A stretch of 21,940 nt of DNA, taken from positions 1-21,940 of IMG/VR virus record IMGVR_UViG_3300044647_001196, one strand, 5' to 3'. Positions 1 through 13,316 of this stretch are shown in pieces. The first letter of the stretch is position 1. Every line of letters begins with the position of its first letter. The stretch is from a virus. Made by a program: the position numbers and the translations under genes. Under the pieces are notes generated by a model that saw nothing but the letters and a program-made list of their open reading frames with translations, was not told the origin of the DNA and ran no database searches.

Positions 1-1
1 A

Positions 2-988
2 TCTGCCGATTGGGCAATTCTACCTTATACCGGAAGAAGCAGAGGATATGAAAAATATGAATTGAATAGTGTTCCTGCAACGGTAAAAGATATCGCAGCA
101 TATCCAAGATGGACAGATGAACTTGATAGCTTACTTGAGTCAGAATATGGTCAAGGTGCTAACATCGCAGAGTTGTACGGTTATGACAAGTCTTCGATGC
201 TACAATTGAAGCAGTATTCTCCGCTAATGTATCAATGGGGAGTACCAAACTGGATTGGTGCCAAACACTTTGTTGAACTTGAATACAGAATTGCAAAATT
301 CAATGTTTCAAAGTTCCGTAATGGCTTAACTACATCAGGACTTTTGCAGCTGTTTGGTGATCTTACTCCTGAACAGCAAAGAGATTATCAGGAAGCTTTT
401 ATGCACAAGATGACTGATACAGGCAATGACTTCAAAGTTATCTTCCAAATCCTTGAGAATCCCGAACTAAAAGCTAACTGGGTGCCGTTCGAGCAGTCAT
501 ACAATGGATATTTTATGGAACTATCCAATATTGCCAAGGATAGGATAGCAACTGGCTTCGAAATTCCTCTCAGTTTAGTACAAGCGACACCAGGGCAGTT
601 AGGTAATAATCAGCAAATACGTTCCGAGTTCGAAATATTGTACCGAACAAAGATTTATGATATTCAGCAGTCAATCCTAAGAGGCATTGTGAAGCCTTAC
701 TTGGACACAGTTGCAGAAACGGAAGGCATAGAGTTCTTAAAGAGCGTAGAACTTGATTTTATAAACATCGTTCCGGTATCTTTCGCAGGCGATCTCGATG
801 TGAATATGCTCCTTACCAAAACTGAAGGTAGAGAAATTCTTGGTTATGGCCCGACATTACAGCCTGCAATCAAAGAAGAGCAGATACAGACAGAAGCAGA
901 AGCAGAAGTTCAAGCTGAAGAAGGCACAGAGAAGCAGCAAAATATATTGGCAAAAATTAAAAACTTACTCGGATGGCGCAATTCATAA
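2..988 (+). CDS. Phage portal protein, C-terminal part (5' end outside window or in another frame)
   Basis: The portal forms the dodecameric ring at the capsid vertex through which DNA is packaged and ejected. The protein reads like the C-terminal two thirds of Bacteroidota phage portals: the YSP...WGVPNWIGA segment, the long helical E-x-x-x-x-IAKFN..NG stretch, a GFEIPLSLV..TPGQLGNN turn, and a Glu/Gln-rich tail ending GWRNS. The frame is open from base 2. The only in-window start is a TTG at 62, which overlaps the TGA (63-65) of another frame. About 308 residues from that TTG is short for a portal (usually 400 or more), so the gene is either cut by the window edge or the N-terminal part lies in the neighbouring frame (see findings). 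The 3' end overlaps the next gene by 16 bases, as in a phage late operon. Family assignment is by pattern recognition, not by search. Confidence 0.75.
   Translation, partial: SADWAILPYTGRSRGYEKYELNSVPATVKDIAAYPRWTDELDSLLESEYGQGANIAELYGYDKSSMLQLKQYSPLMYQWGVPNWIGAKHFVELEYRIAKFNVSKFRNGLTTSGLLQLFGDLTPEQQRDYQEAFMHKMTDTGNDFKVIFQILENPELKANWVPFEQSYNGYFMELSNIAKDRIATGFEIPLSLVQATPGQLGNNQQIRSEFEILYRTKIYDIQQSILRGIVKPYLDTVAETEGIEFLKSVELDFINIVPVSFAGDLDVNMLLTKTEGREILGYGPTLQPAIKEEQIQTEAEAEVQAEEGTEKQQNILAKIKNLLGWRNS
3..65 (+). other. Frame-3 coding fragment ending just before the portal frame
   Basis: Frame 3 encodes LPIGQFYLIPEEAEDMKNMN and then stops at TGA 63-65, exactly where a TTG in the portal frame appears (TTGA overlap). 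The fragment reads like the wing region that normally precedes the YPRW segment of such portals. It is either the 3' end of a separate upstream gene translationally coupled to a TTG start, or the N-terminal part of the portal shifted by one base near the A5 run at 51-55. The window edge prevents a decision. Confidence 0.4.
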
Positions 989-1539
989 AGGCATTGGAAG
1001 TTGTGCGAGGTGGGTACATTCGCATCACTCCGACAGATACTCAGTTCGACCCGAATCTGTTGGCTCCATTCGTTGACAATGCAGAGAGGCGATATGTTCG
1101 CAATCTTATCGGTGCTGCTTTTTTCGATGAACTAAAAGCCAATAGGACAGCAAATGTTATAAATTACAATCCTGCATTTGGTGCAATTGAACCTGCCTTC
1201 ACAGATACAGACCTTGAGAATCTGTTCCTGGATGGTAAGCTATTCGATTTGCTTGGTTTTGCAGTCCTGGAAGAATCACTCAGCTTTGCGCATTTCAAAA
1301 TCACATCGGCAGGAGTACAAGTTACACAGGCAAATTTTGCTACAGCTGCAACTGGTAACGATATGCGCTACTTAAAAGATACATTAAAAGATAAGATTCA
1401 GTTTTTACAACAAGAAGTTATTACCTATCTTTGTGATAACAGCGCATTATATGTTCCTTTCGATTTTGAACCTGAAGGAAAATGCCAATGCTGTAAACCT
1501 AAAAACAAAAACATTTCAACATTTCCAATAATATACTAA
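973..1539 (+). CDS. Putative head-tail connector/adaptor protein (188 aa)
   Basis: This 188-residue protein directly follows the portal, with a 16-base overlap, where phages carry head completion or adaptor proteins. It has an early conserved-looking block (residues about 20-60, LLAPFVDNAERRYVRNLIGA) and a mainly helical middle, features recalling small Bacteroidota phage connectors that form a helical ring below the portal. It ends in a Cys-containing tail (CQCC, about residues 171-174) with no visible metal-site partner. It starts at ATG 973; its stop (1537-1539) overlaps the next ATG (TAATG), implying translational coupling. The function is inferred from position and general character; a hypothetical structural protein is the safe label. 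Confidence 0.45.
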   Translation: MAQFIKALEVVRGGYIRITPTDTQFDPNLLAPFVDNAERRYVRNLIGAAFFDELKANRTANVINYNPAFGAIEPAFTDTDLENLFLDGKLFDLLGFAVLEESLSFAHFKITSAGVQVTQANFATAATGNDMRYLKDTLKDKIQFLQQEVITYLCDNSALYVPFDFEPEGKCQCCKPKNKNISTFPIIY

Positions 1540-4717: not shown

Positions 4718-4750
4718 AAGAGCATCTCAATCGGATGCTCTAATTTTTTA
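4718..4750 (+). terminator. Bidirectional rho-independent terminator between convergent operons
   Basis: An 8-bp stem (AGAGCATC at 4719-4726 with GATGCTCT at 4734-4741) with a 7-base loop is flanked by an A-run on the left (4712-4719) and a T-run on the right (4744-4749). It therefore gives a U-tail to transcripts from either side. It lies between the rightward late operon (stop 4711-4713) and the leftward SSB operon (stop at 4748). Confidence 0.85.
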
Positions 4751-5242
4751 GAATGGTAACTCACCATCATCATCACTGGAAGGAGTTTCAGCTCTGAGTT
4801 GTGCCAATTGTTCTGTCGTTAGATTAAACTTATCTTGTATCTGTGATATTGTAAGTTCACCTTTTTTTACTTTTATCTTCATAGCCACCATTTGACCGTT
4901 AGTTGGTTCGGGTAAGCTTGGCTTATCTTCGTACTGCTCAGTCTGTTTTTCTCCTTTATAACTCAATTTACGTGCGGTAGAGGCTATGATATCGGTGTAA
5001 TATTTCCCATCGTGTTCTCTGTATTCAACTTTCCCTTCAATGTAGCACAAATCTCCTTTGTCAGCTTTAAACTCTTTGAAGATAGTGCAGCGGTGCCATT
5101 GCGTTTTTTCCTGCCATTCGCCATTCTTATCCTTGTAGCTTTCAGATGTTGCCACAGAAAGATTGGTCAGCTTGTCTCCGCTCTTTGTATCTTTCACATC
5201 AATTTGACCGATTCGCCCAATCAGCGTTACTTTGTTTACCAT
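4748..5242 (-). CDS. ssb: Single-stranded DNA-binding protein (164 aa)
   Basis: An OB-fold SSB that coats single-stranded DNA during phage replication and recombination. The fold is seen in residues 1-105: MVNKVTLIGRIGQ start, LSVATSESYKDKNGEWQEKTQWHR, IEGKVEYREHDGKYYTDI. The last residues are an acidic tip (DDDGELPF, 157-164) as used by bacterial SSBs to dock helicases and nucleases. Unusually, the linker is not a simple Gly/Pro/Gln tail: residues about 120-150 carry a charged helical segment (KGELTISQIQDKFNLTTEQL) that looks like a small HTH. I start at ATG 5242; an in-frame ATG at 5305 would add 21 Lys-rich residues that overlap a separate small gene. The start is one base after the stop of that gene, so it is translationally coupled. 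It is the last gene of the promoter A unit. Confidence 0.93.
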   Translation of the reverse strand: MVNKVTLIGRIGQIDVKDTKSGDKLTNLSVATSESYKDKNGEWQEKTQWHRCTIFKEFKADKGDLCYIEGKVEYREHDGKYYTDIIASTARKLSYKGEKQTEQYEDKPSLPEPTNGQMVAMKIKVKKGELTISQIQDKFNLTTEQLAQLRAETPSSDDDGELPF

Positions 5243-5243
5243 T

Positions 5244-5372
5244 TTAATCGTTTTTAGGTTCGTGATATTTGTTATTCTTTTTTTCTTTCGGGGAATATGG
5301 CCCAAGAGATTCAGTCATCAGCAACAGGCCAAGACCTGTGCTGAGACAAAAGATTGCTATTGCTAAAACCAT
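5244..5372 (-). CDS. 42-aa single-TM peptide coupled to SSB
   Basis: Reading the minus strand from ATG 5372 gives a 42-residue peptide: hydrophobic residues 2-19 (VLAIAIFCLSTGLGLLLM), then TESLGPYSP, then a Lys/Asn-rich cytoplasmic-looking tail (KEKKNNKYHEPKND), ending at TAA 5244-5246. The start overlaps the end of the upstream gene by 10 bases and the stop is one base from the SSB start, so it exactly fills the space in the operon. This is good evidence that it is a real gene. The hydrophobic part could be a membrane anchor or uncleaved signal. The function is unknown; its place beside SSB might suggest membrane attachment of replication, but that is speculation. Confidence 0.6.
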   Translation of the reverse strand: MVLAIAIFCLSTGLGLLLMTESLGPYSPKEKKNNKYHEPKND

Positions 5373-5683
5373 AGTGAATCCTCCTCGATATCAGACTCGT
5401 AAGCCTCCATTAAAGTTTCAGAGAATAAGGTTTGAAGTTCAGATTTAGTACGTTCAAACAAGATAGCTGCCTCTTCGATTGTGACCGATTTGTTATAGTC
5501 AGTAATGAAGATGTCATCCAGTTCAAAATATGCGCTGTAATCAGGCTCTATTTGACATCCGTAGCTATCTCTTGAGCCTCTTTCCTCTTCGATGTATGTT
5601 CCGATTAGTTTTACATAAACTTCGTTTGTCGGGAAGTTGTCGCACTCCATAAAAATGCCTGTGCTAAATTTGTTGTTTGTCAT
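5363..5683 (-). CDS. Acidic hypothetical protein, first gene of the SSB unit (106 aa)
   Basis: A 106-residue protein with about 24 acidic against 7 basic residues, so strongly negative, without transmembrane segments or recognised motifs. The N-terminal half appears beta-rich (FSTGIFMECDNFPTNEVYVK then LIGTYIEEE), the C-terminal part helical (EEAAILFERTKSELQTLFSE). It is the first gene after promoter A, with a leader of only about 25 bases that carries the ACTACCAA element three bases before ATG 5683. It overlaps the 42-aa gene by 10 bases. Early expression plus strong acidity would suit a host-takeover or DNA-mimic protein, but nothing in the sequence proves this. Confidence 0.6.
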   Translation of the reverse strand: MTNNKFSTGIFMECDNFPTNEVYVKLIGTYIEEERGSRDSYGCQIEPDYSAYFELDDIFITDYNKSVTIEEAAILFERTKSELQTLFSETLMEAYESDIEEDSLWF

Positions 5684-5713: not shown

Positions 5714-5744
5714 CAAATGTAATATAATAATATTATACTGCAAA
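5714..5744 (-). promoter_or_regulatory. Promoter A (leftward, ORF106-SSB unit)
   Basis: On the minus strand TTTG (5744-5741), 19 bases, then TACATTTG (5721-5714): an exact match to the Bacteroidota sigma consensus TTTG-N19-TAnnTTTG. Transcription would start near 5708. The upstream box touches the 3' end of the AAA+ helicase gene (stop at 5748), so the SSB group has its own promoter. Confidence 0.75.
5720..5735. promoter_or_regulatory. AT palindrome operator A (imperfect)
   Basis: TAATATAATAATATTA has 7 of 8 symmetric pairs and differs from the perfect copies at 9248-9263 and 11106-11121 by one base near the centre. It fills the spacer of promoter A and its end overlaps the TA of the TAnnTTTG box, an ideal place for a repressor. 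Confidence 0.55.
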
Positions 5745-5747
5745 TAA

Positions 5748-7475
5748 TCACAGAATATTTTTTAAATTTATTTGCACACATCTGCCAATTAAACCCGAAC
5801 TGAATCGAGTAGTATTTCGCTTTGAGGCTCCAGTATGCCTCAAAAGTACAGTTGAATACGATATCGCCCAAGGTGTACGGCTTAAAATCATTTTAACCCA
5901 GGTCGATGTATTTAAAATCAGCAAATATTTTTCTTTGTTATCTTCCACTACTTTCAATCCTAATCGCATTAGCCTCTCGTTAGCTGAATTCTGTTTAATT
6001 TTGGCTTGTGGGTCATATTCTGAAGCATATTCGACCAACTCTCCAACTGTTACAGTTCCAATGAAATCTCCTTCGATGCGAGTTTCATTCTGTAGTATTG
6101 TTTGAAGGCATCTTTCTTCATCAGTCAAGTCAGCTGTTTGGTTAAATAGTCCTTTCATTTTCAAAAGTTCGACAGATTCATCATATGCCTGCTCTATTGT
6201 AACTACATCATCATTCCAGGTATGCCACCATCCACCTAATAGTGCGCCAAACTGATCACCAACCGCCCTATCATTTATTGTTTCTGCAATGACTTCAGTA
6301 AAAATAGCAATTGACTGCAAGATGTTCGGCACAAGATTAATTATACGAGCAATAAATCTTAAGCCAAAATCTTTTTTTATGACTTCTTTCTTCTTTTGGT
6401 TCAGGATGTTAAACTTTTCAGAATCTTGATGCTTTGCAAGTTCGAAGACGGTGAATCTTCTCTTGTCGCTGTCATTGACCAGTTGCGGATTGATACTCAC
6501 AAACAAGAAACAACTGCGAATAAAATAGTCCGTAGCTTTTCCATCCTTGCCGCCCTTGGGAATGGCAGGTGATTTCTCCGAACTTCCTGCTCTTGCCAAG
6601 GCAATGACTTCCTGCATTCTCCTTGCTGCATTCTCATCGTTGCCCTCAGATTCGTCAATCGTCACAGGCATAGCATCACTATTGAGTTTCTGTCTTATCG
6701 CTGCCTCTGTCGCTGCTGTTCCCTGAGCATTAATTGAAAACTCTCCTAAGACCTGGTGAATAATCTGTTCAAGTACATAGGTCTTTCCGTTGCCACGAGG
6801 GCCTGTAATCCAGCAATGAGGCCTCCAGGACAATGCTCCGCAAATCGGTGCTATTGCTAACCATCCTGCCAACATTTTACCATCCGCATCTGTTTGCCAA
6901 TTGAGTGAGCTTAATATTTTTGTAAGCAGAGAGCATTCGATTCTGTCCATCGATGCTTCTATCGGAATGCGGATGTTCTTTCGCATCTCATAAGTAAACT
7001 CCGTTTCAATACTGCCAAGGTTGTATCGAATCTTCTCGCTGAGTAACTGCATCCCGGAATGGAAGATAACTCTGTCAGATTCTTTCCAGGCTCCTCGGCC
7101 TCGGATATTCTGCAAGTCAAAATATCCAGCTTTATTACAAAGTTGTACTAAAATGTTGGAGATGTTCTCAGACTTTGCAAAAACTTCGTGATCCCAAAAC
7201 TCAAGTGGTGCCAATGCCGTAACGTGCTGCTTGGTAAACTTTCCTGTAGTGAATGCTAATATCGCATTACTTGTCTTTGAATAGAAGTAAAATCTTTGAG
7301 ATCTCGCTTCTGTATCCCATCCAAGTGGTTTGAAATAGCCACCTACAAAGCCTCGTGCATCAGTTGTAATAGAGTTTTCGGGTGCTGCCTCAGCTTTTGG
7401 TTTTCGCTTTCTTTTTGCTGGTGGTGGTGTTACATCTTCGGTATTGTTATCCCACTTAATTGGTAGTTTTGTCAT
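5748..7475 (-). CDS. AAA+ replicative helicase-like ATPase (575 aa)
   Basis: This is a large phage replication ATPase of the type often fused to or paired with a primase (DUF927/D5-like helicase group). The order is: a Lys/Pro-rich disordered N-terminus (16-36); a domain with YFKPLG...RFYFYS..AILAF and APLEFW (45-95); CNKAGYFD..NIRGRGAW (113-130); LAGWLAIAPICGALSWRPH (202-220); Walker A GPRGNGKT (225-232); Walker B VTIDESEG (271-278); and SDKRRFTV (336-343), likely sensor/arginine-finger region. The C-terminal RTPWA segment matches the family end, so the gene looks complete. No TOPRIM or primase motif is present, so priming must come from elsewhere. The start ATG 7475 overlaps the upstream stop (ATGA). 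Codons 3-6 contain the AAACTACCAA element. It probably unwinds DNA at the phage fork using host polymerase. Confidence 0.75.
   Translation of the reverse strand: MTKLPIKWDNNTEDVTPPPAKRKRKPKAEAAPENSITTDARGFVGGYFKPLGWDTEARSQRFYFYSKTSNAILAFTTGKFTKQHVTALAPLEFWDHEVFAKSENISNILVQLCNKAGYFDLQNIRGRGAWKESDRVIFHSGMQLLSEKIRYNLGSIETEFTYEMRKNIRIPIEASMDRIECSLLTKILSSLNWQTDADGKMLAGWLAIAPICGALSWRPHCWITGPRGNGKTYVLEQIIHQVLGEFSINAQGTAATEAAIRQKLNSDAMPVTIDESEGNDENAARRMQEVIALARAGSSEKSPAIPKGGKDGKATDYFIRSCFLFVSINPQLVNDSDKRRFTVFELAKHQDSEKFNILNQKKKEVIKKDFGLRFIARIINLVPNILQSIAIFTEVIAETINDRAVGDQFGALLGGWWHTWNDDVVTIEQAYDESVELLKMKGLFNQTADLTDEERCLQTILQNETRIEGDFIGTVTVGELVEYASEYDPQAKIKQNSANERLMRLGLKVVEDNKEKYLLILNTSTWVKMILSRTPWAISYSTVLLRHTGASKRNTTRFSSGLIGRCVQINLKNIL
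7460..7469 (-). promoter_or_regulatory. ACTACCAA element inside codons 3-6 of the helicase gene
   Basis: The minus strand reads AAACTACCAA beginning at nucleotide 7 of the helicase coding sequence (residues K-L-P). With the next U this gives 11 contiguous pairs to the loop of the 13155-13183 hairpin, within the footprint of an initiating ribosome. Because it is coding, part of the match may be coincidental. Confidence 0.45.
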
Positions 7476-7840
7476 TGTAGTGATTTTTGTCCGTACTTTT
7501 CTTCTTGGTATTCCATAAAGTCATTAGCTCTCCTTATGCTTTCGGATCTTGCTGCCTCCTTTCCGTGCATTCCAAATATTTTTCGGATAGTCATCTCCTC
7601 TCGATTCTCAAGTTTAAGGGTATGCAAGGTAGGAGTTACATTTGGAACTTCCAAAAAAATTGTTTCAGATTCTGTATTTTTTAATTCTTCAATCAATTCA
7701 TTCAATACAGATAGCTGCCTCTCCTTTTTTTGTCTGTATGCTTTCTTGGTAACTTCTTCTTTTAAAAAGCCATCCATATACTTGGCTTCAGAGATTAGTT
7801 CCTGGATAACTTTCTCTGCTTTTTCAATTAGTTCATTCAT
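7472..7840 (-). CDS. Hypothetical coiled-coil protein (122 aa)
   Basis: A charged, almost entirely helical protein: residues 1-55 are Glu/Lys-rich heptad-like (KAEKVIQELISEAKYMDGF...), then a short beta or loop part (TIFLEVPNVTPTLHTL), then a second helical region (EEMTIRKIFGMHGKEAARSE). It sits between the VRR-NUC nuclease and the AAA+ helicase, with 4-base ATGA overlaps on both sides, so its product is made with theirs and may be a helicase loader or accessory. I do not recognise the family; an alternative ATG at 7836 is in another frame. Confidence 0.65.
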   Translation of the reverse strand: MNELIEKAEKVIQELISEAKYMDGFLKEEVTKKAYRQKKERQLSVLNELIEELKNTESETIFLEVPNVTPTLHTLKLENREEMTIRKIFGMHGKEAARSESIRRANDFMEYQEEKYGQKSLQ

Positions 7841-8181
7841 ACTCTTGTTATTTTTCCTATGCCACCAGCTTTGTTGACATTGTTAATGAAATTTTGTTGT
7901 TCCTTGCTTACCTTTCCGCTTTCGGTCTTGACTTCTACAGCTGTGAATACTGCGACCTTGGTGCCTACCATCTGCGGAGTAATCTCTACTTCAGTCCATC
8001 CAATTAGATCGGATGAGCCTTTTATTAGTCCGAACTCAATAATGCGAGGCTGAGTAATTACGAGCTGCGAATTTATGTACTTCTTTATTCCCTGGTATGC
8101 GACACCAGTATTGTTTCGAAATAAAACTCCATTTTTGGAATGCTCTGCTCTGATTTTGTTGTAATATCCTTGCTCTTTCAT
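7837..8181 (-). CDS. VRR-NUC domain nuclease (114 aa)
   Basis: A minimal stand-alone VRR-NUC protein of the PD-(D/E)XK superfamily, the domain also found in FAN1; in phages such proteins cut branched DNA such as Holliday junctions and flaps. The key residues are all visible: G55-x-x-D58 in GLIKGSSDLIGW, E83-x-K85 in AVFTAVEVKT, and Q95 in VSKEQQNF, followed by the usual AGGIG turn (105-109). Its length of 114 residues is normal for the phage form. It overlaps the genes on either side by ATGA, in the middle of the promoter B replication unit, where a junction nuclease would help resolve replication or packaging intermediates. Metal-dependent activity is expected from the family. Confidence 0.85.
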   Translation of the reverse strand: MKEQGYYNKIRAEHSKNGVLFRNNTGVAYQGIKKYINSQLVITQPRIIEFGLIKGSSDLIGWTEVEITPQMVGTKVAVFTAVEVKTESGKVSKEQQNFINNVNKAGGIGKITRV

Positions 8182-8411
8182 CGTTCTATTAGCTTTTTTT
8201 CGACTGGTATGAATCCTGTTCCGGTGCCTTCATTACCCATCATTTTAAGAAAATCGATTTCTACCTTTGCAGAGTTAATTATTGTATCTGCTAGTTTTGA
8301 TATTGCCTTGGCTTTTGCTGTCTCTTTCTCAACATCGGCATCATCATCCATTAGCTTCTCAATCTGTTCGAAAAGTAAGTTCCTAAGGTCTTCAATTTTA
8401 TTTCTTGCCAT
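8178..8411 (-). CDS. Small helical phage protein of unknown function (77 aa)
   Basis: A 77-residue acidic helical protein with KIEDLRNLLFEQIEKLMDDD then AKAISKLADTIINSAKVEID, ending GTGTGFIPVEKK. Proteins with this pattern (LR..LFe.ie.L...a.ai...a.tii..AkveidF) recur in phages beside nuclease or replication genes, but their function is not known to me. It starts at ATG 8411, overlapping the HNH-like gene by 14 bases, and its stop overlaps the VRR-NUC start. Confidence 0.65.
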   Translation of the reverse strand: MARNKIEDLRNLLFEQIEKLMDDDADVEKETAKAKAISKLADTIINSAKVEIDFLKMMGNEGTGTGFIPVEKKLIER

Positions 8412-9012
8412 TTTTTCTGATAGTTCTTTTAAGTTTTTGTAATGCTCTGATTGTTTTCTTCAGTTCTTCAGGGTATTTATGAATAGCATTAAGCTTCATA
8501 TTTTCTCCTTTGCTAATGAGCATCAAATTGTTAATGTCATATTTGTTCAGTAATGGATTTATTACTCTTAATATGCTTCCTTTTGGTATCTTTCCGTAGG
8601 CTTCTTCCCAAATAAGAATCTCTTTTCGAATCCATTTTCTATCTGCCACCTTAACAAGTAAAAAACCATCTTTGTTATCTATCCTGGTATCTCCTACTTG
8701 TTTTGTATTATGAGGCTTTTGCCCTTTCTTGAAGCTTGTCGCATTTGGGCCCATAAAGCCTTTTTTCCCTTTGTTCCAGGTATCATTACCTTTTTTGTAT
8801 CTCGTTGCAGCACCGTACTTTCTTAATCTATCAGCTTCTAAACTCAGAAGGTAGTCAATAAACTCAGGAGTTTTTTTAATTCCGTGAGTGTATGCCTGTC
8901 CATAAATTGAAGAGGCTGACCTGTTCAATATATTGCACAATTCATCTGTGCGAGTATGAGGATACAACTCTCGCAATATCCTCATCTCACCTTCAGTCCA
9001 TTTACGCTTCAT
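8398..9012 (-). CDS. HNH-like DNA-binding protein with degenerate active site (204 aa)
   Basis: The N-terminus (residues 3-45, KWTEGEMRILRELYPHTRTD...SASSIYGQA) is a SANT/Myb or HTH-like DNA-binding domain. Residues 74-165 resemble the phage HNH endonuclease module (KKGNDTWNKG, RIDNKDGFLLVKV, IWEEAYGKIPKGS, NNLMLIS). However the His expected before the IWEE helix (kHrl.WE) is Glu131, and the D-G-N of the second half is replaced by NPLLN (152-156), so cleavage may be lost. The start is chosen at ATG 9012 because the domain begins there and the overlap with the upstream gene is a normal 11 bases; a TTG at 9147 would overlap it by 146. It could be a domesticated homing-endonuclease relative acting as a DNA-binding factor. 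Confidence 0.65.
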   Translation of the reverse strand: MKRKWTEGEMRILRELYPHTRTDELCNILNRSASSIYGQAYTHGIKKTPEFIDYLLSLEADRLRKYGAATRYKKGNDTWNKGKKGFMGPNATSFKKGQKPHNTKQVGDTRIDNKDGFLLVKVADRKWIRKEILIWEEAYGKIPKGSILRVINPLLNKYDINNLMLISKGENMKLNAIHKYPEELKKTIRALQKLKRTIRKNGKK

Positions 9013-9199
9013 CCTTAGCTCTTTTGAGATAGTAAACAGCTTCTTCGATAATAACTTTAAGGCTGCCCAACTGTGCGTGTGGTTTATACTCTTCACTGAC
9101 AGCAACCATGTCAGCAGTTTGTTTTGAGCGTTCCATTGCAGTTTCAAGTTGTTTCAATGCCTGATCAATGCAGAACTCCACATAAGTGTGATTTTTCAT
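9002..9199 (-). CDS. Small hypothetical protein, first gene of promoter B unit (65 aa)
   Basis: A 65-residue helical protein (TYVEFCIDQALKQLETAMER then VIIEEAVYYLKRAKDEA) with no recognised motif. It is the first gene downstream of promoter B; its leader of about 33 bases carries the ACTACCAA element three bases before ATG 9199. It overlaps the HNH-like gene by 11 bases. Confidence 0.6.
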   Translation of the reverse strand: MKNHTYVEFCIDQALKQLETAMERSKQTADMVAVSEEYKPHAQLGSLKVIIEEAVYYLKRAKDEA

Positions 9200-9202
9200 A
9201 AC

Positions 9203-9212
9203 TTGGTAGTTT
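9203..9212 (-). promoter_or_regulatory. ACTACCAA leader element, ORF65 start (sRNA target candidate)
   Basis: On the minus strand AAACTACCAA ends three bases before ATG 9199, the same spacing as at 5687-5696. It offers 10 contiguous pairs with the loop of the 13155-13183 hairpin. Confidence 0.6.
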
Positions 9213-9239
9213 TGATATGTTAATAATTGATTACGGTTG

Positions 9240-9269
9240 TAAAAGTATAATATAATTATATTATATCAA
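9240..9269 (-). promoter_or_regulatory. Promoter B (leftward, replication unit)
   Basis: On the minus strand TTG (9269-9267), 19 bases, TACTTTTA (9247-9240), one base from the TAnnTTTG consensus. It overlaps the stop codon of the SF2 helicase gene (9266-9268) and drives ORF65 through the AAA+ helicase. Confidence 0.65.
9246..9265. promoter_or_regulatory. AT palindrome operator B (20-bp perfect palindrome)
   Basis: TATAATATAATTATATTATA is a perfect 20-bp palindrome containing the 16-bp core shared with the site at 11106-11121. It fills the spacer of promoter B and overlaps the TA of its downstream box. Confidence 0.65.
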
Positions 9270-10888
9270 TACTTATTGTAACTTTTTTTAAAATTATTTT
9301 TGTTTTCGACTTTTTTCCAGCTGTAGAATGAGTTCCAGGCCTTGTCGATTGCAGACTGAAAATCTGTTTCGCAAAGTGTTGTAGCGTTGATTTTATATTT
9401 GTTATTTATTGTTTTTACAAAATCCATAATTTCTTTTATTAACAATTTCTCTTTCATAAATGGTTCTAATTTTTTATTAGCATCTTTAACTTCTTTCAAT
9501 ACCTTAGCTTGAAAAACGTGTTTAACCCAGTAGTCTTGACGGCCTTTTTGCTCTTTAAATTGCCATAATTCTTCCAATGTTATACATTCCCATTGTTCTT
9601 TTGGCTTAGGCCCTTGCTGCATATTCAAGAAATCATCTAAAGACCTATTATCTTTGACAGCAACAGCATTCTCAATCGTTTTTTGTTCTCTCTCCTTTCC
9701 CTCCGGTATCAATCCGCATTCAGGGCAGCACTCCTCTGTCTTCTCAAAAACAGCATAACAGCCTTGGCAAACATTGTAGCTATCTTCGACTTCGTTCTTC
9801 TTTTTATTTTTCTTCTTGATGCCAGTCAAATCCCATACACGAGGTGTCAATGGATGCTTATGTCTTGCCATATTGTTAACGTGATCCAGGATGATGCACT
9901 TGTCTTTCCCGGCACAAGGTCTCAATCCTCTGCCGACTATCTGCAAATACAGACTGAGCGATGCCGTTGGTCTGAGCATACCTACTACAGCAACAGCAGG
10001 AATGTCTGTTCCCTCGCTGATCAGGTTACAAAACGTAACCACCTGGATAGTTCCATCCGCAAGACCTTTGAATATTCTATCAACTTCCTCATCTTTTTGC
10101 TCTCCGTGAACTGCCTCAGATGTGTATCCTGCATTCCGAAAAGTTTTTGCCATCTCCTGTGCGTGATGGATGGTGGAGCAGGAATAGATTGCAGGCTCAC
10201 CATCAGCAAGTCTTCTGTATTCCTTAACTATGTCTCCGCAAATCGCAATATCTGTCATTACATCAGATATTTCTCCCAGGTCATATTCTCCAAAATTGTT
10301 TTGCTTTAAGTTATCCAAAGCTTCAATCTTTTTGAACATATAATATGCCGGCATAACAAGATTACCCATCTTAATCAGTTCTGCTATCGGAGGCCCAAGT
10401 ACCATCTGTTGAAACATATCTCCAAGACCTTTGCCATCCAGTCTCCAAGGAGTGGCAGTAACACCAAGCATAAAAGTTTCTGAATAGTATTCCATTATTG
10501 CTTTCCAAGTTCCTGCACTTGCGTGATGGGCCTCATCAATAATAATAAGGTCAGGTCTCGGAACTTCATCCAATCTGTTCTTCAATGTCTGCACACTACA
10601 AACCTGTGCCGGGTGTTGGTAGTTTTTTTTGTGTCCTCCTGCAATAATTCCGTGTTCCAAGTTATACTTATTGCATCGCTCAGAAATTTGTCTCACAAGG
10701 TTCTTTTTATGCACCAGGAAGAATACTTTCTTGTTTCGGCTCATCGCCTGCTCTGCGATATGAATGAAAGTTTCAGTTTTTCCTCCACCAGTAGGAAGCA
10801 CAAACAATACTCTTTTGCTTCCTTGCTTGAAATGCCCTCGAATAGAATCTACTGCATCGGACTGGTATGGTCTAAGAGTTACGCTCAT
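9266..10888 (-). CDS. RadD-like superfamily 2 DNA helicase (540 aa)
   Basis: A DEAH-box SF2 helicase with RadD-type layout, probably unwinding or remodelling recombination and replication intermediates. Visible motifs: Q-like RPYQSDAV (6-13), Walker A PTGGGKT (32-38), DEAH (118-121), motif III TAT in GVTATPWR (about 141-148), and motif VI QIVGRGLRP (about 308-316). A four-Cys zinc-ribbon (C-x2-C...C-x2-C, CQGCYAVF...CCPECG) follows at about 374-395. The C-terminal third is Lys-rich and helical. I take ATG 10888 (MSVTLRPYQ) as start; a TTG nine codons upstream adds a basic extension. It overlaps the HTH gene by 17 bases, so both form one unit from the divergent promoter. One internal AAACTACCAA occurs near codon 88. 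Confidence 0.85.
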   Translation of the reverse strand: MSVTLRPYQSDAVDSIRGHFKQGSKRVLFVLPTGGGKTETFIHIAEQAMSRNKKVFFLVHKKNLVRQISERCNKYNLEHGIIAGGHKKNYQHPAQVCSVQTLKNRLDEVPRPDLIIIDEAHHASAGTWKAIMEYYSETFMLGVTATPWRLDGKGLGDMFQQMVLGPPIAELIKMGNLVMPAYYMFKKIEALDNLKQNNFGEYDLGEISDVMTDIAICGDIVKEYRRLADGEPAIYSCSTIHHAQEMAKTFRNAGYTSEAVHGEQKDEEVDRIFKGLADGTIQVVTFCNLISEGTDIPAVAVVGMLRPTASLSLYLQIVGRGLRPCAGKDKCIILDHVNNMARHKHPLTPRVWDLTGIKKKNKKKNEVEDSYNVCQGCYAVFEKTEECCPECGLIPEGKEREQKTIENAVAVKDNRSLDDFLNMQQGPKPKEQWECITLEELWQFKEQKGRQDYWVKHVFQAKVLKEVKDANKKLEPFMKEKLLIKEIMDFVKTINNKYKINATTLCETDFQSAIDKAWNSFYSWKKVENKNNFKKSYNKY

Positions 10889-11060
10889 CTTCCGCTTTTT
10901 TAAGTTCCTGCTCAATCTTTTGAAGTAATTCTAATGTGTGTGGCTCTTTTCTGCTCCAATGGTCTAACGTAGTTCTGTGAATTCCTGTTCTGTTACATAG
11001 TTCGGAGATACTCATCCCGATCTTGTTTGCTCGCTCTTTGATTTTTAGGTAAGTCTTCAT
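10872..11060 (-). CDS. Cro/CI-like HTH regulator (62 aa)
   Basis: A 62-residue protein that is little more than a helix-turn-helix: IKERANKIGMSISELCNRTG followed by IHRTTLDHWSRKEP, with the recognition helix at about 26-36, and an acidic/basic C-terminal helix. Small Cro-type or MerR/XRE-like phage regulators have this size and bind short palindromes as dimers. It is divergent from the exonuclease gene; a palindromic operator lies between them and over its own promoter, so it is the best candidate to bind the palindromes at 5720, 9246 and 11106 and to autoregulate. The binding target is inferred from proximity only. It overlaps the downstream helicase gene. Confidence 0.7.
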   Translation of the reverse strand: MKTYLKIKERANKIGMSISELCNRTGIHRTTLDHWSRKEPHTLELLQKIEQELKKAEDERNS

Positions 11061-11099
11061 TTTTTTTAAGTTTTAAGAAAAAAATATTATACAATGATG

Positions 11100-11107
11100 C
11101 AAAAGTA
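11100..11107 (-). promoter_or_regulatory. Leftward promoter box for HTH-helicase unit
   Basis: The minus strand reads TACTTTTG, a perfect TAnnTTTG box, about 40 bases before ATG 11060. No good TTG box is seen 19 bases upstream, so it may be weak or need activation. It overlaps the left end of operator C. Confidence 0.5.
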
Positions 11108-11121
11108 ATATAATTATATTA
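11106..11121. promoter_or_regulatory. AT palindrome operator C (perfect 16-bp, divergent promoters)
   Basis: TAATATAATTATATTA is a perfect palindrome lying between and touching both TAnnTTTG boxes of the divergent promoters (minus-strand box 11100-11107, plus-strand box 11120-11127). A dimer bound here would block both the regulator gene and the recombination genes. Confidence 0.65.
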
Positions 11122-11127
11122 TCTTTG
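11120..11127 (+). promoter_or_regulatory. Promoter C (rightward, recombination unit), TAnnTTTG box
   Basis: TATCTTTG matches TAnnTTTG exactly. The expected TTG box about 19 bases upstream is replaced by ATG/TGC, so this promoter may be weaker than A and B. Transcription would start near 11133, giving a leader of about 30 bases that ends in ACTACCA at the start codon. Confidence 0.6.
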
Positions 11128-11155: not shown

Positions 11156-11165
11156 AACTACCAAT
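11156..11165 (+). promoter_or_regulatory. ACTACCAA element overlapping exonuclease start codon
   Basis: AACTACCAAT runs into the ATG (11164-11166), so its last two bases are the A and U of the start codon. It gives 10 contiguous pairs to the loop of the 13155-13183 hairpin and would cover the initiation codon itself. Confidence 0.6.
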
Positions 11166-11919
11166 GACAAATCAAGAGTATCACTCAAAAACAGATTTTT
11201 TAAGCAAAAGCTTGCTTGATCAAATCCGCAAATCTCCTGCTCACTTCCAAGCATATCTTAATGCAGAGAAGCGAGATGCAACTTCAGCGATGAACTTCGG
11301 AAGCCTGGTGCATTCTGTACTATTCGAACAGGATGACTTCGCAATTATGCCGACCTGCGATCGCAGAACAAAGGAAGGTAAACTTTTGTACGAGGCATTC
11401 TTAGAAAATGCTCAAGGTAAAGAACTATTGGTTACTGAAGACCATCATGAACAAGCTTTGAAAATCGCAGCAGCAGTTCTACAGCATCCAAAAGCAGCAG
11501 CACTTCTTCAAGATGGCAAAGCAGAGATTCCGGTATTTGGACAACTCGAAGGTCTTGACTTCAAATGTAAACCCGATTTTCACAATACCAAGTTCAACGT
11601 ATTGCTTGACCTTAAAACAACTACAGACAGCTCACCTTCTGAGTTTTCAAAATCTGTGTGGAACTATCGCTATCACGTTCAAGCTGCACTTTATATGGAC
11701 TTGACCAAAGCAGAAAGGTTCTTCTTTATTGCAGTAGAGAAAGAATCTCCGTTCAACGTTGAGGTGTATGAACTTGACCAGGATGCAATACAGAAAGGCA
11801 GAGAAGACTACCTGGCAGATATCGCAACTTACAAAAAATGTGTCGAAACAAACAACTGGCACGGATACACAGAAGACAAGTCAATCAATATTCTTTCACT
11901 CCCTAAGTGGGCAAAGTAA
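11164..11919 (+). CDS. RecE-like PD-(D/E)XK exonuclease (251 aa)
   Basis: This matches the nuclease domain of exodeoxyribonuclease VIII/RecE-like phage proteins, which resect one strand of duplex ends to prepare DNA for annealing. Visible motifs: N-terminal DFLSKSLLDQIRKSPAHF with G46-S-L-V-H50 (the motif that opens the active site), P137-D138 in KPDFH, D149-L-K151 in LLDLKTTTD, and H171-x-Q173...Y177 in HVQAALYMD. The length is normal for the stand-alone form. It is first in the unit from promoter C and lies two genes before a Rad52/Erf-like annealing protein, forming a two-component recombination system with SSB encoded on the other strand. No Walker motifs, so it does not need an ATPase partner. 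Confidence 0.87.
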   Translation: MTNQEYHSKTDFLSKSLLDQIRKSPAHFQAYLNAEKRDATSAMNFGSLVHSVLFEQDDFAIMPTCDRRTKEGKLLYEAFLENAQGKELLVTEDHHEQALKIAAAVLQHPKAAALLQDGKAEIPVFGQLEGLDFKCKPDFHNTKFNVLLDLKTTTDSSPSEFSKSVWNYRYHVQAALYMDLTKAERFFFIAVEKESPFNVEVYELDQDAIQKGREDYLADIATYKKCVETNNWHGYTEDKSINILSLPKWAK

Positions 11920-11928
11920 CAACAAATT

Positions 11929-12264
11929 ATGGAAAAATTATATTTAGGAATTGGAGATGGAGATGTTCAAACATTTGAATTTAAAACTCCATATGATTTA
12001 ATAGATTATCTTATTGAAATTCAAGATTCATTTAAAAATATTGTTTGGCTTTTTTGTTTAGAAAATGAAATTTTTATATCTGAAAGCTTTGATACTTTTT
12101 TTACTTTTATAAGAGAATATATTGGAGCAGAAAATGAAAGCGAATTAGATTTAGAATATGCTGATATTAGTGAATATTATTTACAAGAATATCAAAGTTA
12201 TGAAGATGCTTATTCAGTTGCATTGGAGATGAGAGAAGGCAATAAATTACAATTTAATAAATAA
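11929..12264 (+). CDS. Strongly acidic AT-rich hypothetical protein (111 aa)
   Basis: An inserted-looking gene between the exonuclease and the annealing protein, a pair normally adjacent. It has about 25 acidic and 7 basic residues (net charge near -18), many Tyr and Phe (EYIGAENESELDLEYADISE), and no recognised domain. Its codons are plainly more AT-rich than those of its neighbours, with almost all third positions A or T, suggesting recent transfer. Its size, charge and position as an accessory gene suit a DNA-mimic or anti-defence protein, but no specific similarity is recognised. Start ATG 11929 lies nine bases after the exonuclease stop. Confidence 0.65.
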   Translation: MEKLYLGIGDGDVQTFEFKTPYDLIDYLIEIQDSFKNIVWLFCLENEIFISESFDTFFTFIREYIGAENESELDLEYADISEYYLQEYQSYEDAYSVALEMREGNKLQFNK

Positions 12265-12270
12265 CTACCA
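12263..12270 (+). promoter_or_regulatory. Short ACTACCA element before annealing-protein start
   Basis: AACTACCA ends two bases before ATG 12273 in the gap between ORF111 and the annealing-protein gene. Only 8 bases match the hairpin loop complement, so it is a weaker site than the others, but a second full copy follows inside the gene. Confidence 0.45.
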
Positions 12271-12272
12271 CA

Positions 12273-12800
12273 ATGTCAAACATCACAAAACTACCAACAT
12301 TCCAGGAACTGATCACAGATTCTGAAGACAGCCTAAAGCAAAATGCACTAACTGTACTGCTAAATCAAGACCCTCCGAAGACTTGGTTAAGCGAACATCC
12401 AATGATAAAAGGCTATAAATATTTAGCAATCGAGAAAATTGAGTACCTTTTAACACGAATTTTCACCAAATGGTGGGTAGAAGTAAAAAACGTTCAAGTA
12501 GTCGCAAACAGCGTTGTAGTCACGGTTAGGCTCTTTGTAACGAATCCAATCACAAACGAAATAATGTTCCAAGATGGCATCGGTGCAACAGCAATTCAAA
12601 CCGACAAAGGAGCAGGCGCAACTGATTGGAATGCAGTAAAGACCGATGGTGTACAGAAAGCTGCACCCGCAGCTGAGACCTATGCAATAAAAGACGCAGC
12701 AGAGAAATTTGGCAAGATTTTCGGCAGAGATGTGAGCAGAAAAACAACAATGGACTATAGTCCGTTACTGAAAAAAAGCGATTTCAACGACCAAGTTTAG
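12273..12800 (+). CDS. Putative Rad52/Erf-like single-strand annealing protein (175 aa)
   Basis: A 175-residue protein whose C-terminal half has the Rad52/Erf/Sak pattern: a beta sheet (VQVVANSVVVTVRLFVTN), a G-x-G loop (DGIGATAIQTDKGAGA), then a long helix with AAPAAETYAIKDAAEKFG and KIFGRDVSR, the counterpart of the A-x-x-x-A-x-K-D-A-x-x-x-x-G helix of Rad52-type annealers. Together with the RecE-like exonuclease upstream it would promote strand annealing of phage DNA ends. It is the last gene before a terminator. Assignment to Rad52/Erf superfamily is by pattern and context; RecT or Redbeta are less likely given the short length. It carries AAACTACCAA at nucleotides 16-25 of the coding sequence. 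Confidence 0.65.
   Translation: MSNITKLPTFQELITDSEDSLKQNALTVLLNQDPPKTWLSEHPMIKGYKYLAIEKIEYLLTRIFTKWWVEVKNVQVVANSVVVTVRLFVTNPITNEIMFQDGIGATAIQTDKGAGATDWNAVKTDGVQKAAPAAETYAIKDAAEKFGKIFGRDVSRKTTMDYSPLLKKSDFNDQV
12288..12297 (+). promoter_or_regulatory. ACTACCAA element in codons 6-9 of annealing-protein gene
   Basis: AAACTACCAA at nucleotides 16-25 of the coding sequence (residues K-L-P-T) can pair with the hairpin loop for 10 bases within the initiating ribosome footprint. Together with 12263-12270, two elements flank this start codon. Confidence 0.45.
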
Positions 12801-12819
12801 TGTGTTAATAGTTTGTGTT

Positions 12820-12852
12820 AGAGTGCCTTATATCGGGGCACTCTTTTTTTTT
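12820..12852 (+). terminator. Rho-independent terminator after recombination unit
   Basis: An 8-bp stem (AGAGTGCC 12820-12827 with GGCACTCT 12837-12844), a 9-base loop and a T9 run (12844-12852) lie 20 bases after the annealing-protein stop. Confidence 0.85.
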
Positions 12853-13089
12853 GCCCTGTAACAGGATTTTTTTTTGTAACGCTATCTGTTTCATATAACT
12901 TATTGATTCTCAATTCGTGTAACAATGTAACAGATGTAACGGGAAAATATATATATATATAAGAGAATTTATTATTGTGCTATATGTGTAGGTATATTAA
13001 TGTTACATCCGTTACATTATTATAATTATATTATTATTAAGTAGTTAGGTGTAACAAAATTGTGTTACATACTTGTTACGCTTGTTACA
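12853..13089. repeat. Array of 11 GTAAC/GTTAC repeats around an AT tract: candidate origin or pac region
   Basis: This non-coding stretch has GTAAC at 12858, 12876, 12919, 12927, 12936 and 13051, and GTTAC (the same site on the other strand) at 13002, 13011, 13064, 13075 and 13084. Several neighbours are 8-9 bases apart (12919/12927/12936, 13002/13011, 13075/13084). Sites on the left point one way and most on the right the other, around a 15-base alternating AT tract (12947-12961). Repeated inverted iterons plus an AT-rich unwinding tract resemble a replication origin. Alternatives are a TerS-binding packaging site, because terS follows, or activator sites for the late promoter, whose upstream box abuts the last repeat. 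Confidence 0.6.
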
Positions 13090-13121
13090 TTTGATTTAAG
13101 TAAAAAAAAAACATATTTTTG
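13090..13121 (+). promoter_or_regulatory. Promoter L (rightward, hairpin RNA and late operon)
   Basis: TTTG (13090-13093), 20 bases including an A-run, then TATTTTTG (13114-13121), a close match to the Bacteroidota consensus. Transcription would start near 13127. The upstream box follows the last GTTAC repeat (13084-13088) by one base, so a protein bound to the repeats could control it. Confidence 0.7.
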
Positions 13122-13126
13122 CAGTG

Positions 13127-13225
13127 CTTTTTAGCAGGTTTCAGTTTGTCCATGGGGGAAGGTTATTGGTAGTTTCCTTCCCCAATTTTAAAAATCTTCG
13201 TTTTAAGACACTTTTTTTTCTTTTT
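13127..13225 (+). ncRNA. Candidate phage small RNA / leader with anti-ACTACCAA hairpin loop
   Basis: Directly downstream of promoter L lies an RNA-like stretch with an 8-bp GC-rich hairpin (GGGGAAGG 13155-13162 with CCTTCCCC 13176-13183). Its 13-base loop (13163-13175, TTATTGGTAGTTT) is the reverse complement of the ACTACCAA elements near early-gene starts. The hairpin is not followed by a T-run, so it is not an ordinary terminator. A weak stem and T-rich stretch at 13190-13225 might end the RNA; both ends given here are estimates. No open reading frame is present (the ATG at 13152 meets a stop after six codons). It could instead be only the 5' leader of the terS-terL mRNA. Confidence 0.5.
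13155..13183 (+). other. GC-rich hairpin exposing the anti-leader loop
   Basis: The stem GGGGAAGG/CCTTCCCC is the most GC-rich inverted repeat in an otherwise AT-rich region. Loop bases TTGGTAGTTT (13166-13175) are exactly complementary to AAACTACCAA. Confidence 0.75.
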
Positions 13226-13233
13226 GATAGTAG

Positions 13234-13273
13234 AGTACCACTTTAGAAAGATAATTGAATGTAGGTACTAAAG
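13234..13273. repeat. Inverted repeat in terS leader
   Basis: AGTACC (13234-13239) pairs with GGTACT (13264-13269), and CTTTAG (13241-13246) with CTAAAG (13268-13273). The two pairings overlap on the right arm and exclude each other. It could be an alternative-structure leader or a protein site. The rest of 13184-13316 shows T-rich and A-rich DNA but no further promoter consensus. Confidence 0.3.
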
Positions 13274-13316
13274 AATTAAAAATAAGATAGGATTAGCATT
13301 AAAATAATGGAAATAA

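Follow-up and report, generated by a model that had tools for sequence, protein, structure and literature searches.

We propose that a short AT-rich palindrome repeated in the early promoter regions of this phage is probably the operator for a 62-aa Cro-like protein that the phage itself encodes and that would shut off early transcription and regulate its own synthesis. The window, that is, the whole stretch of 21,940 nucleotides analysed (21.9 kb), comes from a virus collection (IMG/VR) and represents part of the genome of an uncultured tailed phage. The host is presumably a member of the Bacteroidota because the window's promoters follow the Bacteroidota pattern, carrying the TAnnTTTG -7 box of the published consensus (PMC9723704). 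From about 11.1 kb, early genes run leftward (helicase, primase-like protein and SSB) and rightward (DUF3799 exonuclease and Rad52-like protein), flanked by structural genes; judged by its gene content, the unit that begins with the helix-turn-helix (HTH) gene would also be early.

The putative operator O1, a perfect 16-bp palindrome (TAATATAATTATATTA, 11106-11121), is common to divergent promoters, and its ends fall on the TA of two face-to-face -7 boxes. One of these, TATCTTTG (11120-11127, + strand), belongs to the rightward operon of DUF3799 exonuclease, a 111-aa protein and Rad52-like annealase (11164-12800, +); the other, TACTTTTG (11100-11107, - strand), belongs to the leftward unit in which the HTH gene (10872-11060, -) overlaps the DEAD/ResIII helicase gene of the same operon (9266-10894, -). 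Putative operator O2, a 20-bp palindrome (TATAATATAATTATATTATA, 9246-9265) with its core at 9248-9263, stands before an operon encoding a 65-aa protein, HNH, a 77-aa protein, VRR-NUC, a 122-aa protein and the primase-like protein (5748-9199, -), and its promoter has a -33 TTG at 9267-9269 (-) and a 19-nt spacer. Putative operator O3 (TAATATAATAATATTA, 5720-5735), in which 7 of 8 pairs match, ends on the TA of the box TACATTTG (5714-5721, -), with a -33 TTG 19 nt upstream (5741-5743, -), and precedes an operon for a 106-aa protein and SSB (4748-5683, -).

These observations bear out much of a preliminary description of this DNA, which had reported exact 16-mers at O1 and O2, the latter extendable to 20 bp, a single mismatched pair at O3 and the sharing of O1 by divergent promoters. 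It had also placed the end of the core exactly on the TA of a TAnnTTTG box at every site, which holds at O1 (on both sides) and O3 but not at O2, where the box TACTTTTA (9240-9247, -) is without the final G and has its TA 2 bp beyond the 16-bp core, reached by the 20-bp extension only; in some orthologues the equivalent box is TACTTTTG, again 2 bp out. All three sites described are present, but a fourth copy with one mismatch and no TAnnTTTG box, at 13018-13033, had been overlooked.

Four near-copies with at most one mismatch therefore occur in the 1,153 intergenic bases, and when these intergenic bases were shuffled with dinucleotides preserved and sites counted at the same threshold, 4,975 of 5,000 shuffles gave no site and 25 gave one. 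The palindrome is real, and a chance origin is excluded. The boxless copy is itself surrounded by repeats: window 12801-13316 holds seven copies of TGTAACA/TGTTACA in 516 bases, compared with nine in the remaining window, and similar sequence occurs in contigs L003-L006. These repeats are possibly replication-origin iterons or the sites of another protein.

The sites recur among related phages. Scans for the divergent motif and for the helicase, exonuclease, primase-like and protease proteins yielded a family of close contigs, and we found the palindrome at the same promoter regions in over ten relatives. Wherever a close contig spans the divergent promoters, the palindrome lies between them, in the same position and with symmetric changes, if weaker in L299, in which only the outer five pairs are left. 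At the 65-aa and SSB units the sites are kept in almost every contig that includes these units; an SSB-type site was missing in L230 and L232/L299. In relatives the putative regulon includes at least one additional site, found in 14 contigs before a leftward unit beside the head protease gene, a locus in a region absent from the window. Relative to the box, the core has register 0 at the divergent promoters and at the SSB promoter but is shifted by +2 or more at the 65-aa unit and by +3 at this fourth promoter site; that the palindrome persists while its offset from the -7 box varies speaks against its being a promoter element.

By sequence profile and fold, the 62-aa protein belongs to the Cro/C1 (XRE) proteins. 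PF13443 (HTH_26) is the sole Pfam family over its cut-off (25.8 bits against 22), matches to Pfam MerR being weak, partial and below cut-off, and the best PHROG match is phrog_8, a transcriptional regulator family (E 3.8e-7). A single-sequence structure model (pLDDT 84) has four helices (residues 3-13, 18-25, 29-35, the recognition helix, and 43-61), with no strands and no wing, and its fold matches by Foldseek and VIA-align are SinR, C.BclI, HipB, 434 Cro and P22 c2, at middling Z scores of 6.2-7.7 that, taken together with the sequence profile, predict a lambda-repressor-like fold. When the 62-aa protein itself was the query against viral contigs, no match was obtained, and the orthologues were reached via neighbouring genes; a scan of a genome collection with two peptide patterns, which is a weak test, returned one distant match and no close relative, nor was a close relative found among named phages.

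The way in which the sites change ties this protein to the palindrome. All 6 half-sites in the window begin with TAATAT, whereas among eleven relatives 69 of 72 begin with TAATAA and 3 of 72 are TAATAT. At every locus a change in one arm is matched in the other, and sites within one genome differ by a mean of 0.59 bases, compared with 2.4 between the window's sites and the orthologous sites of relatives. We take TAATAT as the derived state because more distant contigs, with about 78% primase identity, are TAATAA. L007 and L236 share the TAATAT sites, but at 99.8% identity to the window they are not independent of it, and the pairing of Thr30 with TAATAT is seen in one lineage only: at residue 30, in the recognition helix, the window protein has Thr and the relatives with TAATAA sites have Gln. 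We take this residue to align with Gln29 of the 434 repressor, a base-contacting position. As the cause of the site change Thr30 is a lead and not a finding, since the window protein is unusual in having Asn23 as well and a model of the 933W repressor put a position-6 preference down to a residue that does not belong to the recognition helix (PMC3317979).

A phage represented by contigs L245 and L014, which overlap by 127 identical bases, has Gln30, TAATAA sites and a TAATAA-type fourth site. In a comparison of window 1-1046 with L245/L297, identity was 99.9% over window 1-786. A contig this similar to the left end of the window thus has an early region of the other operator class (L014), and recent exchange of modules among these phages is indicated by such sequences. 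It is conceivable that the window phage's own fourth site, which lies outside the window, might mismatch its regulator, because L245/L014, so nearly identical over window 1-786, has a fourth site of TAATAA type.

A stronger case for pairing than TAATAT against TAATAA comes from L253/L296, whose HTH protein is 53% identical to that of the window and whose neighbouring genes have changed, with a RecT-like gene (read from sequence) in place of the exonuclease and an HNH-like gene in place of the helicase. The palindrome there is different (TATAACAS-TTTT-CTGTTATA), and it is found both at the divergent site of the HTH gene (TATAACACTTTTCTGTTATA) and at the fourth site 11 kb away (TATAACAGTTTTCTGTTATA). 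With the same new palindrome at both loci and changed neighbours, the HTH gene and its operator therefore stay paired, and the distant site follows.

Linkage to a small HTH gene extends further: such a gene adjoins the site in every contig that reaches far enough. Where the exonuclease is 62-71% identical, the divergent boxes flank a palindrome of TTAAAAA type, found at that one promoter pair only, and every long-enough contig of this distant group encodes an HTH protein of about 80 aa beside the site. In L018, L020, L023, L028 and L052-L054, a DNA methyltransferase gene has been inserted and separates the HTH gene from the divergent operator; that these contigs carry the palindrome without an HTH gene was considered and rejected, the HTH gene being the second gene in those that are long enough. 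Close relatives among L015-L062 differ in the orientation of the centre (ACC or GGT) of the TTAAAAAACCTTTTTAA palindrome in their divergent region, as if the palindrome were flipping. In L070, L072 and L073, TAATTAAATTTAATTA stands at an offset of 3 from TATATTTG; L072 has this arrangement twice, and L070 encodes a small HTH protein beside its palindrome.

Conserved sites, concerted change and HTH linkage all favour the earlier suggestion that one regulator governs several early units and that the 62-aa protein is the candidate; from these comparisons, it is very probably the cognate regulator of the palindrome. Dimer binding, repression and timing are steps that we infer. A dimer of the 62-aa protein would bind the 16-bp palindrome, which takes up the space from the -33 to the -7 element, and so exclude host RNA polymerase. 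Three such sites would cover four early promoters in the window, with a fourth site added in relatives. Autoregulation, likewise suggested before, would follow from the anatomy: as the leftward operon that lies behind the divergent operator opens with the HTH gene, the HTH protein would limit its own synthesis and, once accumulated, turn early transcription down.

The preliminary description had gone further and envisaged a repressor that silences the early units; comparative evidence favours a single regulator, but a Cro-like early shut-off appears likelier than lysogenic silencing. We favour Cro-like negative feedback over a lysogeny repressor because the HTH gene sits inside the operon under its own site, because no integrase was found in 17 contigs and because a lysogeny repressor would need its own expression while the early promoters were shut. 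That the protein is instead a CI-like repressor of a temperate phage, with the three operators silencing lytic genes in the lysogen, seems to us improbable. Multiple early operators and divergent promoters do resemble lambdoid immunity regions, and the best PHROG match to a transcriptional regulator family would suit such a role. Against it, no tyrosine integrase was found in 17 contigs and no serine recombinase or resolvase in 8, contigs that may be incomplete, and eight contigs have one HTH_3-type match each, with no second. Moreover, the HTH gene is co-transcribed with the helicase gene from the promoter that would be repressed, with no separate maintenance promoter seen, and the two-pattern genome scan, weak as it is, gave no close relative.

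A second alternative holds that Bacteroidota promoters have such an AT palindrome as a neutral or intrinsic property, its symmetry arising from the inverted -7 boxes of overlapping divergent promoters. The two boxes do partly impose the outer TA...TA symmetry at O1, and A/T tracts are common in the spacers of these AT-rich phages, yet we regard this explanation as very unlikely. A spacer palindrome with at least 7 of 8 pairs accompanies 36 of 102 intergenic TAnnTTTG boxes in the close family, whose contigs are related so that the counts are not independent, but only 3 of 104 in other Bacteroidota phage sequences, all three from the L070/L072 lineage. This control consists of other phages, an SSB plasmid search for Bacteroidota host promoters having given mostly Enterobacteria. 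In the family, the palindrome is also present at unidirectional promoters, at register 0, +2 or +3, and its inner bases vary in step from arm to arm and from locus to locus. Complete divergent motifs, with both boxes, are rare as well: among 2.9 million viral contigs they occur in 16 stretches, of which this family accounts for 13. Positions 32-59 of L207, a 91-kb viral contig from a seemingly unrelated phage, contain GCAAATATAATATTATTATATTATATTTGC, which has the same design.

We rejected, as highly implausible, a MerR-like protein that binds the spacer and activates by distorting DNA, to which the location of the sites and the partial MerR matches might point, since those matches fall below the cut-off that HTH_26 alone exceeds, the all-helical model has no winged helix, the spacer is 19 nt at both O2 and O3, and the register of site to box varies by 3 bp.

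By the position of its gene, we propose that the 62-aa protein works like the lambdoid Cro proteins (lambda Cro and 434 Cro), which are likewise small single-domain HTH proteins of an early operon, with palindromic operators at divergent early promoters and expected autoregulation. Its gene is first in what would be an early operon whose promoter carries the palindrome, and its model aligns with 434 Cro (2cro) over 53 residues at 1.9 A (Z 6.5). The system differs from lambdoid ones in that no CI partner or integrase was found (in contigs that may be incomplete), in having one operator per promoter region rather than clustered triplets and in having a dispersed regulated set with TAnnTTTG-type promoters. 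Restriction-modification controller (C) proteins, SinR and HipB share the XRE fold, and several of them autoregulate from palindromic sites, but they are not phage early regulators, and no restriction or toxin partner gene is seen here. The stoperators of Cluster A mycobacteriophages offer another parallel, with one phage regulator acting at several dispersed sites and a site motif that differs between relatives with divergent repressors (PMC6550527). Stoperators, however, are asymmetric and numerous, also stop elongation and belong to a repressor that serves lysogeny (PMC6550527), whereas the sites here are few palindromes, all in promoters except the copy at 13018.

Overall, the comparisons indicate a phage switch of an ordinary type whose regulator and sites have visibly evolved in step. 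More tentatively, and with slightly less than even confidence, we suggest a virulent Bacteroidota phage family in which one Cro-like protein of 62-70 aa controls the early promoters and has had all of its dispersed operators rewritten in concert with a change in the recognition helix, giving relatives separate regulator-operator pairs that evolved naturally. In a small open-access set of literature, we found no described operator-regulator pair for such phages. If our reading is true, there would be several related pairs (TAATAT, TAATAA, TATAACA and perhaps two more types), and such compact repressor-promoter pairs might serve as tools in Bacteroidota. The family would then illustrate how dispersed sites evolve along with their regulator, providing a good natural experiment in co-variation of the two.
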